Origin: Lepidurus packardi
Taxonomy: Eukaryota > Arthropoda > Branchiopoda > Notostraca > Triopsidae
Direction: 5' to 3'
Length of the DNA stretch: 64,000 nucleotides
Assembly (NCBI GenBank): GCA_023053545.1
Contig: JAKZAN010000006.1
Location: 11,477,412 to 11,541,411, forward strand
Shown here: positions 380 to 13,380 of the stretch, in pieces
Numbering within the stretch: position 1 is the first letter of the stretch
Layout of the letters: every line of letters begins with the position of its first letter
Program-made: the position numbers and the translations under genes
Notes under the pieces: model-generated
What the model saw: the letters and a program-made list of their open reading frames with translations, nothing else
Databases searched by the model: none
Told to the model about the DNA's origin: nothing

Positions 380-481
380 GGCTTGCCGCTGCATATTCAA
401 ATCGACATATACGACGATCCCCGAGACAACAGCCCTGTGTCCCATCGTGCTTACTGTCAAATCAAGGTTTTCTGTGATAAG
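380..481 (+). CDS. GRHL: Grainyhead-like (GRHL/CP2 family) exon, part of DNA-binding domain
   Basis: This 34-codon exon begins after the AG at 378-379 and ends before a strong donor (gtaagac at 482). It encodes [13 protein letters not shown], then [13 protein letters not shown]. The last block is the hallmark of the grainyhead/CP2 DNA-binding domain and is closest to the GRHL branch rather than TFCP2. Grainyhead proteins are nuclear transcription factors controlling epithelial identity and barrier repair; that role is family knowledge. The exon ends on a complete codon, in phase with the next visible exon at 2575. No stop or frameshift is seen. Upstream and downstream exons of the gene are outside the window or unrecognised. 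Confidence 0.88.
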
Positions 482-2574: not shown

Positions 2575-2639
2575 GGCGCTGAGCGCAAAACGCGCGACGA
2601 TGAACGCCGAGCTGCCAAACGCAAAATGACGGCCACGGG
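2575..2639 (+). CDS. GRHL: GRHL second visible exon, part left of the P-element insertion
   Basis: This is the first 65 bp of a 61-codon exon. It starts on a complete codon after AG at 2573-2574 and encodes GAERKTRDDERRAAKRK, matching the basic block that follows the CQIKVFCDK motif in grainyhead proteins. The reading frame runs into the P element at 2640. The last 8 bp (2632-2639) are one copy of the target-site duplication. The exon resumes at 6743 in frame once the element and one duplication copy are ignored. Without removal of the element this allele cannot encode the full DNA-binding domain. Confidence 0.85.
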
Positions 2640-2722
2640 CACAGTATAGAGGTTTACACAGTATGGTAACAGGGCTATCTTCCAATGTTAAGGTTTTCTC
2701 ACGACCTTCTCGGTCCCCAGAG
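2640..2722 (+). repeat. P element left terminal inverted repeat
   Basis: This is the inverted counterpart of 6651-6734, starting CACAGTATAGAGGTTTACAC. A handful of substitutions separate the two arms over roughly 83 bp. The arms begin exactly where the duplicated target GCCACGGG ends. Confidence 0.9.
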
Positions 2723-2956
2723 TAATATTCATCTAAAAGGCCAGAAGACGAAAGGGTACATTCGCAAACCTCCCAGTGCAGTTCAAAAAAGGTCACGACG
2801 GTTTACAAAGCGCGTAATTTAAATCTATTGCTTTAAACTATGTGAGCTTAAAATAAAAGATGAATTAACTAGGTCAAAGCACAACACGTATATACATTCT
2901 AGACTATTTCGCGTTACCCAGGTTGCAGCACGAGGAGGCAGTCTATTTTGCAACCC

Positions 2957-3016
2957 ATACATAGGTGTTTTATAGTATACAGGTTTAACCCCATATACTA
3001 TAAAATACCCATGTAT
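2957..3016. repeat. AT-rich hairpin inside P element
   Basis: Two 23-base arms at 2957-2979 and 2994-3016 are near-perfect inverted copies separated by 14 bases. They lie between the left terminal repeat and the 3' end of the transposase coding region. This could be a subterminal structure or an independent small foldback. Confidence 0.6.
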
Positions 3017-3095
3017 ATTAATGTCTATATGTGTTGTTATGACTATTTATGTCTATATACGAGTTATCCATTACATTGGTACTTTACAACTATTC

Positions 3096-3782
3096 CTAAA
3101 TGTTACTAACTTTTGCAAGTTTAGTATTTTTCTTAACACGTTTAACTACGTCTCTTTCTGCTACAGCTACATTTTCTTCTTTAAGTGTATAGTAAATCCT
3201 AACTCGAACGAACAAATTAAAAAAATAATCAACTGGAAAAGCTTCGCATGTCAGTTCAGATAAACCAAGCAGTTTAAGTTTAGCAACAATAACACTAACT
3301 ATCCCTGGCTCACAAAAGGATTCCTGATAAGTTTCCTGAAAAACGGACTCACACTTAAAAAGATACTGAATAAAGGCCTCGCTCGGGACTATTAAGCTTC
3401 CACATGAAGGTCGCTTACTGTACGCCCTGTAAATCCTAACTCGAACGAACAAATTAAAAAAATAATCAACTGGAAAAGCTTCGCATGTCAGTTCAGATAA
3501 ACCAAGCAGTTTAAGTTTAGCAACAATAACACTAACTATCCCTGGCTCACAAAAGGATTCCTGATAAGTTTCCTGAAAAACGGACTCACACTTAAAAAGA
3601 TACTGAATAAAGGCCTCGCTCGGGACTATTAAGCTTCCACATGAAGGTCGCTTACTGTACGCCTTTTCCTCAGTGTACATACGAGCGGATGCTGGGTTAC
3701 ACTGTACAGTGCGAGACTTGCAAAACTGACAATCATTTACGCTGAAAAATTTTACGCAAAAAATACCCAACAACGTAAACAA
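3096..3782 (-). pseudogene. P transposase C-terminal part with internal tandem duplication
   Basis: This continues the transposase after a frameshift near 3745-3760, where the upstream frame ends and this one carries on. It encodes a Cys-rich segment (NDCQFCKSRTVQC) followed by a 79-residue unit present twice in direct, in-frame order. The unit begins around AYSKRPSCGSL and ends around NLFVRVRIY. Such doubling is not part of the family design. The last residues, after the second copy, resemble nothing specific. It acts, if at all, as the C-terminal tail of the transposase encoded upstream on the minus strand. Confidence 0.75.
3191..3664. repeat. Tandem duplication of a 237-bp coding unit
   Basis: The segment starting at 3192 repeats from 3429 with an offset of 237 bases and essentially no differences. 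Because 237 is 79 codons, the duplication keeps the reading frame. Near-identity suggests a recent event or an assembly artefact. Confidence 0.92.
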
Positions 3783-4296
3783 AACCCGTCTCCTCTAACT
3801 CGTCCGGATGCCACTCAACTTCTTCTCTTAGCGCCTCTGTTCCCTCGCGAAATTTGGCGTTTTCTTGAAAATCACAATTACCTGAACTATTGTCAGACAT
3901 CCGCTGAATCTTGGCAAACAAATTCTTCTTGTACAGGTTAAGGAATCGAAGTGGTGTAGGGTTGCAGGAAAGCCCACCGCTCGCTCTAATGCTACCAAAC
4001 AAATGTTCTAAGTTGTCCTGGTTGAAGTTTCTTAAGTGGAGATTGTCAATCACATTGTTTTTATATAAATGTCTAACATTAACCGATAACAGCCAGCCAT
4101 TTACACATTTAATAAGCTTCGTGACATTCTTACCAGCCTTAGAAATAGCTTTAATGGAACGCAGAAAGTTTGAAAGCTTCTGAATTGTTATCCAGTGAGG
4201 GCTACTAAAAACAGTGGGGATGAAAATTGGACGTCGCAAAGCTTTGCGATCAACAGATGACAAACCATTAAAAATATCAAACAAACTGTCAAACAA
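3733..4296 (-). pseudogene. P transposase, insertion-domain and C-terminal block
   Basis: This encodes NQDNLEHLFGSIRASGG and NPTPLRF, the characteristic THAP9/P-element block with conserved Asn-Gln-Asp and Gly-Gly. It then continues into GFVYVVGYFLRKIF, where the reading frame is lost. It is in the same frame as the upstream core at 4420-5343, but the two are separated by an in-frame TAA and by an expanded TTTGATA-type repeat. In intact family members these parts form one protein. Confidence 0.8.
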
Positions 4297-4352
4297 ACAA
4301 ATATCAAACAGATATCAAACAAATATCAAACAAATATCAAACAAACTATCAA
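4276..4352. repeat. Short tandem repeat within P transposase coding region
   Basis: Units close to atatcaaacaa (TTTGATATTTG on the coding strand) occur about six times. The flanking codons spell the family sequence SLFDSLFDI, so the array looks like a local expansion of one or two coding units. It shifts or lengthens the protein here. Confidence 0.8.
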
Positions 4353-4419
4353 ACAAACTGAAATTTAAGAGGAACTCTGCGGTTTGAAGAGCTTGAACCG
4401 GTAGCTTGTTAAACCGAAC

Positions 4420-5343
4420 TTAAGTTCGGATTCCTGCGGCAACAGTATGACTGCAAACCTGCGAAGCTAGTTTAACCTTCATCTTCAGAAAACTAGTTGT
4501 GTTAATATGCTGTAGAGTTAACTTCCTAGCTAAACGGAATTTTTGTTTACGATCTATTTCAAAAAACATACGTAAGTGACCCCACTTTGCTACGTTAATT
4601 TTGGCCGAACCGAATACCATGTAATACTTAACGAGGTTGTTTCTGATACTTTTTAACAAGTGGGGTGCGTCGAAAAGAAAAAAGACATTTTTAGAATTGT
4701 GTAAGAAAAAGGGCTTAAGAAGAGATACTCCCATGTTCCTAGCAGCTTTCTGGTTGTTGGGACCCTGGTCACAAACTGTCGCTATAACCTCGCACTTTGC
4801 TTCAGCTAGCTTGTCTATAAATTTTTTAACTAACTTAACTAGAAGAGAAGCAGCACAGCTTCCGTTTACAAAAAAGTATCCAACGGGTAGTTTCCAGTGT
4901 CCATCAATTGACTTGACCATAGAAACTAAAACAGAGTTCGCTACTTTAGCAGCATTTCCTGTCTGACAATATTCGTAACCTATAACTGAATCAGAGCCTA
5001 TCTCGTAATCAAGAGATGTCTTTAATGACATCTCATCAAAGGAAAAAACACACATGCGTTCAGAACGGGTAAAAGAATTCATTTTAACCTTTAAAAACTT
5101 AAAAACAATTTCGCTAAAACCTGGCCTTATCTTAACTCGAGACACATACTTTCTTAACAGTGAAGTTGAGGGCAAAACAAACGTGTTCCTCCACTGGTTA
5201 TAAGCTCTTCGACTAACTAAATAAAAGCCAATTGCGTCTGCTACCTCCGTTATTAAATAGCGGCGCCTCCTACAACCGTTTAATGCGTTACGAACAGTAC
5301 ACGCAACGAGATTACAAGCTGGTGGAGTCAAATAAGTTGACAA
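4420..5343 (-). pseudogene. P transposase catalytic (RNase H-like) core
   Basis: This is an open stretch of 307 codons. It begins with the region linking the coiled coil to the core (AYNQWRNTFVLPS, RPGFSEIVFKFL) and continues with SFDEMSLK, which carries the first acidic residue of the P-type catalytic domain. It runs on through CDQGPNNQK and FDAPHLLKSIRNNL, both typical of THAP9-like transposases. It ends at a TAA directly after SHTVAAGIRT, where homologues continue, so the stop looks like a mutation. The upstream THAP reading frame overlaps it by 16 bases in another frame, implying a frameshift or a small intron. Confidence 0.85.
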
Positions 5344-6050
5344 AAAAGCAAGATAGTAACAATGGATAAAGGGGCAGAGATCTTCTGTTCTAATTCTACA
5401 TTTTTCTCCACCTCGTTTGCTAACTTGGTTTTAAGGGCTTTGACTTTCCTTTGCTTGTATTTTAAATTGTGTTTAACTAATTTTGAAGCAGAACGGGTTT
5501 TCTTTAACTGTACTCTTAACATTGATACTAATTTTTCAGCATGCGCAAGTTTTTTGGAAACAGCAGCACAATCGGCACGCAAACAAGATGCCTGGGGTAA
5601 GGTTGGGATTTGGGAAGTAGAAAAGTTACCATATTCAAATTCACTATCCAATTCCAAACCATCTAAAGAGGCATGAAAACCGTCAAGATCGATAGTCTCG
5701 GGGTGAATGTCCCGAGTACTACTAATTTCTGGTGAAGCTGGGGAAACAGGCGTTTCTTTAGAGGGTAGTTTTTGCGCATAGTTGTGATCACTATAAATGG
5801 GTGTAAAATCACCACAGGGTTCGCAAACAGGAATAAATGGATGTTGCGAGCAAAGAGATGGCTTACAACTACGAAAATGATCTGAGCAGATTCGTAAATG
5901 CTTTTTTGAAAATACTGCGCACTCTTTAGGAAGAGCCTCTAACCATAATTCCGAACAACTATCCTTCGGAATACAAAAAAAACTCCTTCCTGCTGCTTTT
6001 CTGTAGGATGCGTTCTTGCAAAAAGGAACACAACAAATTACTCTAGGCAT
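5328..6050 (-). CDS. P element THAP-domain and coiled-coil N-terminus
   Basis: The start chosen is the ATG at 6050-6048, because MPRVICCVPFC is the standard beginning of a THAP domain. The C2CH zinc-binding pattern is visible: Cys pair near residues 6-11, a conserved Trp in WLEALPK, then ICSDHF. A Ser/Thr/Pro-rich linker follows. Then comes a Lys/Leu-rich coiled coil (KLAHAEKLVSMLRVQLKK onward) of about 70 residues, as in P transposases, where it mediates multimerisation. The THAP finger binds the element ends. The frame closes at 5328 just after the coiled coil. Confidence 0.85.
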   Translation of the reverse strand: MPRVICCVPFCKNASYRKAAGRSFFCIPKDSCSELWLEALPKECAVFSKKHLRICSDHFRSCKPSLCSQHPFIPVCEPCGDFTPIYSDHNYAQKLPSKETPVSPASPEISSTRDIHPETIDLDGFHASLDGLELDSEFEYGNFSTSQIPTLPQASCLRADCAAVSKKLAHAEKLVSMLRVQLKKTRSASKLVKHNLKYKQRKVKALKTKLANEVEKNVELEQKISAPLSIVTILLFCQLI

Positions 6051-6074
6051 GTTTAAGTAAACTAGCTTAACCAC

Positions 6075-6650
6075 TATTGGACACTAAATCTCGGTTTGCT
6101 AAAAACTCACTTATATTACACTGCTGGATTAATGTACATTTTTTAATGACTTAATGAAAATTGTTTACTGTACTTCGTCTTGAAAAAGGCAAACTACAGA
6201 GTCGTGTTAAGAAAACGGTGAAAATTTTCTTTAAAATAAATTGAAAGTGAGCTATGTGAAATTTGCAACAAACTGCACGGAAGCGCAATAACAATTGGTA
6301 GGAGTCGATGGGGCGACGCTATTTATAAGGCATTCAAAAACACAGAAGTAGGAAGTACTTGCATTTCTTTAGGGGTTAGCAAGCAATGTGAACTTGAAAT
6401 GGATTAGTGTAAGACTTATTATCAAAAAATAGCATAGGCATTTTTCCAAAAACACTTTCAAATGCGCGCGTTGCCGGTAGGACCCTACGTCAGCCCAAAA
6501 CTCCCTAGAGTGCCCGAGAGAGTCCCCCGTTTTGTGAATGTTTTGTTCTCTTCTCGAACCCTTTCTCTAGTAGATTAGGAATGCCTACATGGGGGTACAT
6601 GGCACAGTATGGGAATCCATCCCCCATATAAGCCTTCGTACCCTCAGATC
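6075..6650. other. P element 5' non-coding region
   Basis: This lies between the THAP start codon and the right terminal repeat. No reading frame of note is present. A second cacagtatgg-like motif occurs at 6603-6612, resembling the terminal sequence and possibly a subterminal transposase site. Confidence 0.5.
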
Positions 6651-6734
6651 CTCTTGGGACCGAGAGATTTGTGAGAAAACCTTAACATTGGAAGGATACC
6701 CCTGTTACCATACTGTGTAAACCTCTATACTGTG
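6651..6734 (-). repeat. P element right terminal inverted repeat
   Basis: The reverse complement matches 2640-2722 and ends CTATACTGTG, immediately followed by the second TSD copy GCCACGGG at 6735-6742. Confidence 0.9.
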
Positions 6735-6742
6735 GCCACGGG

Positions 6743-6860
6743 ACGCAACAAGCCATTGGACGATTTATACCAGACCTCGTGTGAACGATCCGAGTTCTAC
6801 TCCATGGCCGATTTGAGCAAACTCCCTGCTCTTTTCACGCCCTCCGAAGACATGGACAAG
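6743..6860 (+). CDS. GRHL: GRHL second visible exon, part right of the P-element insertion
   Basis: Continues the exon from 2639: 65 plus 118 bp give 183 bp, exactly 61 codons. It encodes LDDLYQTSCERSEFYSMADL and ALFTPSEDMDK, a strongly grainyhead-like segment. A donor (gtaaac) follows at 6861. No stop or indel is present in either half, so the exon was intact when the P element landed. Further exons are not found downstream, where a non-LTR fragment begins within about 50 bp. Confidence 0.85.
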
Positions 6861-6909: not shown

Positions 6910-7673
6910 GTCAGCTGAACTTACAGCAATTGAAATAGCGTTAGATTCGGTAGCGACAAACCCCCCCCCCCCCCGACAAATTTGTCATTCTAACAGACTC
7001 AAAGGCGGCGCTAGCTATACTAAAAAGCTGGGGTTGCAGAACTCATTTTGATCTCAGCCAACAAATTCAGGGAAAAATAAGAAGCTTAGGAGTAGATGGT
7101 TACACAATCAATTTACAATGGATCCCCGCCCATATTGGCATCCCTGGTAATGAAGCAGCGGATCAAGCAGCAAAGAGAGGAAGAACCTCCAGCAATGAAA
7201 GAACAAACGGGCTGACAAGACACGAGCTAAAAACAATCACCAAGCAAAACATCGAAAGAGAGTTTTTTAACGAAATCAAACTGACTACGTCACAGGCCAT
7301 TGTATTAAAGACAGAAAATCTAGGATCCAATAAATGGAGGACCATCAAAAGAAGAAGAGAAGCTGCTGCTGTATTAAGTCTCAGATGTGGTCATGGCAAG
7401 ACCGGATCGTGGATGCACAGATTTCATCTACAGGATAGCCCGCTGTGCCGAATCTGTGGTGTGGCAGACGAAACCGGGAAGCATCTAGTCATGGAATGCC
7501 CAACCCTGAGAGCGGAGCGCAACGCTTTATTCAGCAAACTGCGAAGCAAAAACATACCAGTGGACTTCGAAGAAATTCTAGGATTCGGAAACAGAACAGT
7601 GCATGATCGGTTTTTTATACAAAACAATTTTATCAAGTTCATAACACAAACGAAGATTTTAGATTTCATCTGA
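6910..7673 (+). pseudogene. Non-LTR retrotransposon RNase H / zinc-knuckle tail, 5'-truncated
   Basis: The fragment begins at AELTAIEIALDS and is interrupted by a poly-C run at 6961-6974 that probably spoils the frame. It continues with ILTDSKAALAILKSWG, WIPAHIGIPGNEAADQAAKRG and a terminal CRICGVADETGKHLVMECP. These are RNase H acidic and His motifs followed by the CCHC-type knuckle of I/Jockey-like elements. It is a paralogue of the fragment at 27247-28329. The 3' UTR reaches about 7790 and shares a gaagncgac-type stretch with that copy. Confidence 0.8.
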
Positions 7674-7782
7674 AGATGCGAAAGTACCAAACAGTGAGAG
7701 TATGTTAAAAAAGAAAGCCGAAGGCGATAATGTGACGCGATAGCGACATGGTTCGCTTCAGAAATACAAAACAACAATATAG

Positions 7783-7952
7783 CGGGCATGTTTTATAATC
7801 GAAAATTTTTGTCGTGTTATCCGTTCTTAACAAGTGTAATTTTTTAATTTTTTTATGTATTGATAATCCATACTCCCATGTGCAACGATGTATACATAGC
7901 GGGCACGCTTTATAATAAAAAATGTTTGTCGTGTTATCCGTTCTTAACAAAG
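7783..7952. repeat. Direct repeat pair, about 54 bp
   Basis: Two copies, around 7783-7836 and 7897-7952, share atagcgggca and ttgtcgtgttatccgttctt with a few substitutions. The intervening 60 bp are A/T-rich. This may be the tail repeat of the preceding retroelement or a small minisatellite. Confidence 0.7.
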
Positions 7953-8089
7953 ACACAAAATATAAGTCCTGTCGCTAAATTTTAGCTTGTACTGTTCTGC
8001 CATAAGAATGTGAATAAAAATTTGCACGATTGTGCTGCTGTTTCGCCTTTATAGACCAAATACAATCTGAAAACGAAACTTTCTACTCT

Positions 8090-8425
8090 TACAGTAACGA
8101 ACTTACTGATCGCTACATGGACTTTGCAAACTGACCAAATCACATTGCTTTTCCATTGTTGGGCCAATCCTGTCATTTGAAGCCTACTTCTACTCTTAAG
8201 TAGGGTTCTCAACACGATATCCCTTCTTAATTCCCTAGTCAATTAAAGGAGCAGGTTATGTAATTAAATAACCTGCTCTTTTAATTGATTGAGGAGTTTA
8301 GAAGGAATTCCCTACCTAAGTGTAGTAGGCTAGAAATGACAGGATTGGTCTGAACAAAGGAGAAGCAATGTGATTGGTCAGTTTGCAAATTCCATGTAGC
8401 GATCAATAAGTTCGTTACTGAACAT
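8090..8425. repeat. Foldback (MITE-like) element
   Basis: The left arm, from about 8094, is mirrored by the right arm ending about 8420, centred on 8263 where gcaggttat faces ataacctgc. The arms, about 165 bp each, share blocks such as gatcgctacatgg and caatcctgtcattt in inverted order with scattered mismatches. No coding capacity. No clear TSD could be assigned. Confidence 0.85.
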
Positions 8426-8429
8426 CTTT

Positions 8430-9126
8430 TTGCAAAAGTTATTAGTAAATAATGTTGATACACTGTAGTGGAATAGGCTTTGTAAAGCTATCTTGTCCTT
8501 CCCCAAAAGAATTAGCATACAAAGGTTGCTATTAGATTAACTACTGAGTGTGATCTAATGCTCTCAGCTGGCTCCACGAGTCCAGAACGATGAGTAAACA
8601 GAGACACACGCCGGCTTTGACGTCTAAAGACAGCGTAGAGGGAGGGCAAGCCTGTTTTTGGCAGCACCAATAACGTGTAACAAGACCAAAACGAAATGTC
8701 CCGTCTAGGACGATTATTTCCTTGTGCATATTGCAACGTGATTGGCATGATACATGGAAAAGCACTACCGGGTAAGTCTACGCTAAGTATTTGAGTTTCA
8801 AAGTAGTTTCAAACCGTCCAGAGTCACGCATTCAAGATGAGTATGGACCGCGTTTTCCGAAAGCGCTTCGCGCCACAACCGTCGGTTAAGTTGGAGCTGA
8901 GTTGAGTTGTCAGTGTGTTGGAGAAAGAAGTAAAGGGGGGAGTAGTTAGCGCCGAGTAGAGGAGTGATTACGCAACTGTTGGTGTGAAGGAAATACAGCT
9001 GATCGGTTAGTTTGGGTTAAAACGTTTTAACCCAAAGAGATTAACACAGAGATTAACACAGAGATTAACAAATGCATAAAAATAGGCGTTTTTGAAATTG
9101 AGTATGTGATAATAATAAACGGAAGA
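8430..9126. other. Intergenic region downstream of CNPPD1
   Basis: No convincing gene. The only structure is a short tandem array of agagattaacac units at about 9040-9070. An open minus-strand stretch at 8512-8765 resembles nothing I recognise. Confidence 0.5.
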
Positions 9127-11869: not shown

Positions 11870-12271
11870 TGTTGAGATCCCCACACGTGGTGATACCCCT
11901 GGCTTTCCTCCGACGTGGACAAGTTCTTCTGGTAGGGGTTTAGAAGTTGTGTAGAAGTTGTGTTGTCCTTCAGGAGAACTATGTAAGTCCACGTCGGTGG
12001 AAGGCCGAGGGTATAAGTACAAGTGGCACACGACGCGGGTATAAAAGGTGAAGCCTGGGTCGCGCCAAGGGGCAGTCTACCCGCAGTTGTTATTATGTGC
12101 TGTATTTCGACTGAGACGAAACACTTGGGTTCTGTCAGGACAGTGTTTTTGGTCTGTGAGTACAAGTGTGCTGTTTCTCTGCTTTCTTTTTACTAAATAA
12201 AACTATTAAAACCGCCTGCCTACGTCTACCTTGTTAAGTTATTGAGTTTAAATAAAAGTAAGAAATTCAGC
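11870..12271 (+). mobile_element. Gypsy-1 3' LTR
   Basis: A purine-rich tract (gaggtggagga) directly precedes TGTTGAGATCCCC at 11870, the usual polypurine tract/LTR junction. Inside are a TATA box (gtataaaagg at about 12039), AATAAA at about 12196 and a GT-rich tail. The right edge is placed near a CA at 12271-12272, where sequence shared with the 23.3-kb LTR begins. No partner LTR is present. Confidence 0.65.
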
Positions 12272-12336
12272 ACATCCATCCCTTAAACACAACGCAGGCT
12301 TTCTTTATATCTTTTCGAATTTTCCTCCGTGAAATT
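12272..12336 (+). mobile_element. Partial LTR (BEL/Pao-like), 3' end only
   Basis: These bases match 23335-23398 with about one mismatch (acatccatccc through cctccgtgaaat). At the other locus the sequence ends an LTR downstream of BEL/Pao RT. Here it is followed at once by a primer-binding site, so it is the end of a 5' LTR whose beginning is replaced by the Gypsy-1 LTR. Confidence 0.75.
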
Positions 12337-12339
12337 ATT

Positions 12340-12357
12340 TGGTGCCGTGACCAGGAT
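12340..12357 (+). promoter_or_regulatory. Primer-binding site complementary to tRNA-His
   Basis: TGGTGCCGTGACCAGGAT is the complement of a tRNA 3' end reading ATCCTGGTCACGGCACCA. Eukaryotic tRNA-His begins GCCGTGA, so its acceptor stem fits. The site lies a few bases after the partial LTR, as expected for a retrotransposon. Confidence 0.7.
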
Positions 12358-12358
12358 G

Positions 12359-13380
12359 TCTTCGGAAAGGGCTGATATCGATACATCCGAGAAATATCGC
12401 TACATCCGAGACACCCCAAGAAGCAAGCGTTGTGAGAATGAAGAAGACTTTAGTTTCAGTTTACCCTCAAACTGCAATCTTCACCAAAAACTCGCTTTTA
12501 TAAAACGGCATCCCATTCAGCCTATGTCATTTAGCGAGGTAGATTCTATGCCGTACGTGCCCCAAAAATTGTATAGTCGTTCCCTCGTGAACGGAGGTGA
12601 AGTGTAGAGGTCATGGTTAACAGTCAGAGTTGAACACAGGCAAACTAAGAGCCTCTATTGTAGCATATGCATTGCCTTCTCTGAGAAACCTTCCACATTC
12701 AAGACTGGATTCACCGACTTTCGTCACGCGTACCAACTTGTGGAGCGTCATGAAAATTCTCAAACCCATCGTGACAGTGTTCAAGCATTTATTATGCACA
12801 AGCAGAACGGAGCTATTGATATGCTCATTAACAAAGATCTTGTTAACTTAAGAGCCTCGCAGATTCAAAAGAACGTTGACGTTTTATATCGAGTGTTTGA
12901 AATCGTCAAACACCTCGCTAAACAGGGACTCCCTTTTAGAGGTCATGGGACTAGTGAATCCCTTTACTACCTTTATGACGTGTCTTCTAATCATGGAAAC
13001 TTTCTTGAAACAGTTAAGTTGGTTTCACTTTTCGACAGCGTTCTTAACGGGCATCTGCAGAAATCTGTCGAATTAAGTGAAAATCGAAAGCTTGCACTGT
13101 CAGGTAAAGAGACTGTAAGTTCCGGAGGAGGAAATTTAGTCACATTTCTTTCTAAGACAACTGTAGACAAGGTAATTGAAGCTATGTTGATTGGAATTCG
13201 GAAAAAGATCATCCAGCGCATTGGTGGCAAAAAGTTCAGCATTCAGTTAGATTCCACACAAGATGTCAGTGTAGTAAATCAAGGAATGTTAATAGTTCGG
13301 TTTGTTTTCAATGAACGTCGTGAGGAAAGACTGTTAGCTGTTTTGGATGTCCAAGATAGCACAGGTACTGGCATGCATGT
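12359..13380 (+). pseudogene. hAT-1: TTF/DUF4371-type hAT transposase, N-terminal part
   Basis: One reading frame with a single in-frame TAG at 12605-12607. Before the stop: HPIQPMSFSEV. After it: YCSICIAFSEKPSTF, GFTDFRHAYQLVERHENS and FRGHGTSESLY, then NLVTFLSKTTVDKVIEAM and SIQLDSTQDVS. The last holds the first catalytic Asp region of ZMYM1-like hAT transposases. The remainder of the core and the dimerisation domain are missing; at about 13375 the sequence passes abruptly into Gypsy-2. No terminal repeats found. Confidence 0.78.

Follow-up and report, generated by a model that had tools for sequence, protein, structure and literature searches.

A P-superfamily transposon within an exon of a probable decayed grainyhead duplicate in Lepidurus packardi

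We analyzed a stretch of 64,000 nucleotides of the notostracan Lepidurus packardi (assembly GCA_023053545.1, contig JAKZAN010000006.1, positions 11,477,412 to 11,541,411; hereafter the window), in which an exon of a grainyhead gene (grh) is interrupted by a DNA transposon of the P superfamily. The exon, x6, consists of a left part of 65 nt at 2575-2639, preceded by an AG acceptor and including one copy of the duplicated target site, and of a right part of 118 nt at 6743-6860, followed by a GT donor, both on the plus strand. Joined, the two parts give 183 nt, i.e. 61 codons in frame. Both halves were matched by arthropod grainyhead proteins, and x6 together with its neighbouring exons, used as query, matched the structures of GRHL1 and GRHL2. 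Homology thus assigns the exon to grainyhead (CP2 family) and places it where the DNA-binding region ends (edge and linker).

The inserted element is 4,095 bp long (2640-6734) and is bordered by identical 8-bp copies of GCCACGGG, the left one (2632-2639) being at the same time exon sequence and the right one lying at 6735-6742. Its terminal inverted repeats, about 83 nt on the left (2640-2722, plus strand) and about 84 nt on the right (6651-6734, minus strand), pair over ~83 nt through a 43-nt arm (95 %) and a 44-nt arm (89 %) that a 1-nt indel sets off from each other in register. The minus strand of the element, opposite to the strand of grh, encodes a transposase with a THAP domain (PF05485, 31.8 bits for a cut-off of 23.9; open reading frame at 5328-6083), a TNP-like RNase H N-terminal part with the GTP-binding insertion domain (4420-5430, recognized from domain matches and homologs, in a frame different from that of the THAP part) and an RNase H C-terminal part (open reading frame at 3733-4314). 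PF21787, PF21788 and PF21789 each scored above their cut-offs, spread over two frames; in all, the coding parts occupy three frames, through either introns or lesions. The transposase core matched 110 proteins, some of which bear the name "Transposable element P transposase" in their source. Both structural characters of the P superfamily, a complete (8/8) target-site duplication and terminal inverted repeats, are therefore present, and with the domains and named homologs they support the assignment of the element to this superfamily. A preliminary description of this DNA had named both the P element and the grainyhead-like exon, correctly in each case, and its figures for the element length, the inverted ends, the exact duplications and the exon of 61 codons were all reproduced on remeasuring. 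Two identical 235-nt units, 237 nt from start to start (3192-3663), belong to the 3' portion of the coding sequence of the element. The most similar long P copy of the genome (C1:9.30 Mb) is longer and otherwise arranged at that place, and small indels separate it from the window element in the transposase coding region.

The left and right parts of x6 were then used as queries against the 108.6-Mb genome. The exon was found at six places: the window copy (W, on contig C5), A (C5:12.388 Mb), B (C1:11.748 Mb), C (C6:0.123 Mb), D (C4:0.952 Mb) and E (C1:6.478 Mb). Only W carries the insertion, the five other places being free of it. Read across the insertion, x6 of W aligns with the uninterrupted x6 of E over 183 nt with 5 mismatches and no gap, and x6 is likewise uninterrupted and gap-free in copies A to D (183/183 nt aligned). 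These alignments imply that the insertion is precise and no chance pattern. The differences between W and E amount to three residues in x6 (E9D, S14A and R26P); at S14, E is the copy which departs from four outside arthropod proteins. A genome-wide query with exon x9 matched four of four scored candidates, namely E, C, A and a seventh locus, F (C16:0.595 Mb), for which only 3' exons are present in the 6 kb read. The corresponding x2 query gave three matching places, in E and, as two pieces, in D; neither query had a match at the window locus. The second gene copy considered in the preliminary description therefore exists, and the search that it had proposed for further GRHL loci gave the five other x6 places and F. 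Two further CP2-family loci on C5 (7274480-7274650 and 7296961-7297131), with identical profile scores and 22.5 kb apart, are possibly a tandem TFCP2-like pair or an assembly duplicate.

Locus E matches grh from the N-terminal motif LNVDLPSPDSGIG to the last exon and its stop codon, a stretch that includes the linker, all DNA-binding exons and the small exons found at x8 and in the interval from x6 to x7. No stop codon was found inside the matched exons, so that in the homology model all exons from the N-terminal motif to the stop codon are present and open. E is probably the grh copy that works.

The state of W is very different from that of E. Its N-terminal exon is partial, and x1 contains a 1-bp deletion, which shifts the frame, and a TAA stop. 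In the 94 kb read at this locus x2 was not found, nor were x7, x8 and x9, for which there were matches of 12-22 nt only. A fragment of a non-LTR-type retroelement (6954-7673, plus strand, RNase H / zf-RVT domain match) stands downstream of x6, at the place of x7-x9 in E. Past these lost exons, homology to copy D resumes at 7779-8612 on the plus strand, and homology to the 3' flank of E resumes from 7866. A loss of x8-x9 common to W and D was considered: the two copies both have a tandem-duplicated stretch beside the junction, but their upstream sides are different. Apart from the P element, x3, x4, x5 and x6 are open in W with their splice dinucleotides kept; x5, for example (380-481, plus strand, 102 nt), has a single mismatch to E (T10I). 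The statement of the preliminary description that the exon halves are lesion-free with proper splice sites thus holds for x6, and does not extend to the gene copy, in which other exons are broken or absent. Since the DNA-binding-domain and C-terminal exons are not all present and open, W is very probably by now a non-functional fragment, i.e. a decayed grh duplicate, and it is presumably silent. Of the "unexpressed duplicate" that the preliminary description had set against its own proposal, the duplicate half is borne out.

The other copies are damaged as well. Exon x7 carries a stop in both A and C, and x9 a further one in A. B retains only x5 and x6 in 40 kb, with both x5 splice dinucleotides changed, and F keeps 138 nt of x7 (out of 205), interrupted by a stop. 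In D, x1 to x6 are present, x7 is reduced to a 77-nt piece, and x9 was not found in the region read. Exon x2 of D is interrupted by an internally deleted P derivative of 910 bp (positions 11952-12861 of the D region, approximately C4:943,651-944,560) with the 8-bp sequence TCTTGGAT on both sides; mere loss of a splice donor, considered for this exon, was ruled out by this derivative and its own duplication. A and C differ at 68 of 12,387 positions (99.4 % identity) and have at least 12 kb in common, which we interpret as a segmental duplication of recent date that involved two contig ends. Because introns were copied together with exons among the grh copies, duplication most likely took place at the DNA level, and a processed (RNA-derived) origin is rejected.

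The relative age of the insertion was estimated from three comparisons. The element of W and the C1 copy, the two most complete P copies, differ at 44 positions over 3,065 + 789 + 251 columns (~1.1 %), W differs from D at 244 of 8,357 positions (2.9 %), and outside exons W differs from E at 360 of 9,117 (3.9 %). As the divergence between the P elements is below both others, the insertion probably followed the duplication and fell in a late part of the history of W, if rates are alike. The preliminary description had called the allele "recent"; the element does seem younger than the duplication, which supports this term in part. The divergence between D and A (636/4,689) was dropped from the timing, as it takes in matches of ~78 % to other repeats that are not part of grh.

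P elements were also considered beyond the window. Counts of genomic P copies are lower bounds, since 40 of 446 candidates were scored and 34 of these rows were element ends alone. A perfect 8/8 duplication was observed in six of the eight elements with both ends read (the window element, L006, L007, L018, the C1 copy and the copy in x2 of D), the two others having 7/8 (L008) and 6/8 (L003). The five elements L006, L007, L018, L003 and L008 are short P derivatives (795-1,453 bp) whose ends are intact; perfect 8-bp duplications flank three of them. The 294 kb of regions A to E and W contain five P elements: D has two, A, B and W have a single one each, and C and E have none. Two of the five lie inside grh exons (W and D), so that two of the seven grh copies have a P-family insertion in an exon. 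These exonic insertions say little about a landing preference, since W was picked for its insertion and only D is independent. It is very doubtful that decaying grh copies are preferred landing places of P elements and that the antisense element of W drives antisense transcripts or small RNAs across x6. If true, the pseudogene would be coupled to the regulation of its parent, through an x6 97 % identical to that of the working gene.

Taken together, these data lead us to propose, with a probability of about 0.92, that a P-superfamily transposon jumped into x6 of a dispersed, decayed grh duplicate, the working gene probably being E. DNA-level duplication would have spread grh segments to several chromosomes, where the copies would have decayed through point lesions, deletions and transposon insertions; the P element, moved by the cut-and-paste mechanism known for its superfamily, would then have entered W and duplicated 8 bp of the exon. 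Most likely the insertion disrupts nothing essential. Several observations weigh against this reading: E is a homology model, presumed to be expressed and sufficient; x3 to x6 of W have stayed open; exons of W lying farther off than 94 kb are detectable only through the genome-wide x2, x9 and CP2-profile searches; and exons of W and E diverge less (16/599, 2.7 %) than the non-exon sequence. Selection acting on E would by itself be expected to give half of this last contrast and accounts for it in part, and W may have been functional for some time. This leaves some room for a different order of events, in which the P insertion itself killed a still-working duplicate, with exon losses and lesions of x1 following afterwards. 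The otherwise clean x6 of W, the lower exon divergence and the P-family insertion likewise taken by D, in x2, would agree with such an order; however, the element looks late in W (1.1 % between P elements against 2.9 % between W and D), which leaves less time for later losses, and what was lost (x2, x7 to x9, a portion of the N-terminal exon) is not small. We consider this order unlikely.

The reading of W as a decayed duplicate also resolves what first looked like a dilemma. The preliminary description had noted that grainyhead factors are usually essential and had counted a recent or heterozygous allele among its explanations, and the precise split of x6 would fit an essential grh allele. 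Yet the dilemma dissolves because x6 is uninterrupted at five other places and all recognised exons of E are open; moreover W and E are on different contigs (C5 and C1), and W is broken at several further places. The other grh copies and locus E as good as rule out the disruption of an essential gene. Splicing or truncation of the element into a new grh isoform, also suggested there, would find its signals in the x5 and x6 splice dinucleotides that remain in W, but it is scarcely credible for a copy in which x2 and x7-x9 are missing from the 94 kb read, x1 has a frameshift and a stop, and the transposase is antisense to grh. An assembly artefact, with junctions absent from the organism, is just as improbable in view of the exact 8-bp duplication, the full inverted ends and the same architecture shared by P copies of the same family elsewhere.

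This reading removes a false alarm, since the insertion that seemed to strike a developmental regulator of essential function lies in a broken duplicate. The locus also offers a small natural record of the decay of the duplicates of one regulator, two of which took separate P-family insertions in exons, and an arthropod P element of 4.1 kb. The grh copies would matter more only if they were transcribed. The remainder of the window is a dense transposon mix (15540-58678) with DDE_Tnp_4 (three frames), Pao-type and other reverse transcriptases, and non-LTR endonuclease/reverse transcriptase. Eight of the ten window frames scanned are of transposon type (DDE_Tnp_4, Pao-type, reverse transcriptase or endonuclease); of the two others, one has a zinc-finger and a DUF4371 match and one is without match.

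Among known systems, the window element is closest to the P superfamily, to which the P element of Drosophila and the Pdre2/THAP9-type elements of zebrafish belong, and it shares the features given for P elements in PMC7776569. The P element of Drosophila has inverted ends of 31 bp and a length of 2.9 kb (PMC7776569), whereas the window element has inverted ends of ~83 nt and a length of 4.1 kb, and the best protein matches to its core are only ~40 % identical. On the side of the host gene, x6 and its neighbouring exons in the window match GRHL1, GRHL2 and arthropod grainyhead, all of the CP2 DNA-binding family, but unlike these factors the window copy lacks exons without which the DNA-binding domain is incomplete and the C-terminal part cannot be made. 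The retained introns, frameshift, stops, exon loss and transposon insertions are the same as in duplicated (unprocessed) pseudogenes. The sole notable difference is that the six damaged grh copies are scattered and lie nearer to contig ends than E: 0.09-2.3 Mb from the nearest end, against 6.5 Mb for E, contigs being taken as whole chromosomes.
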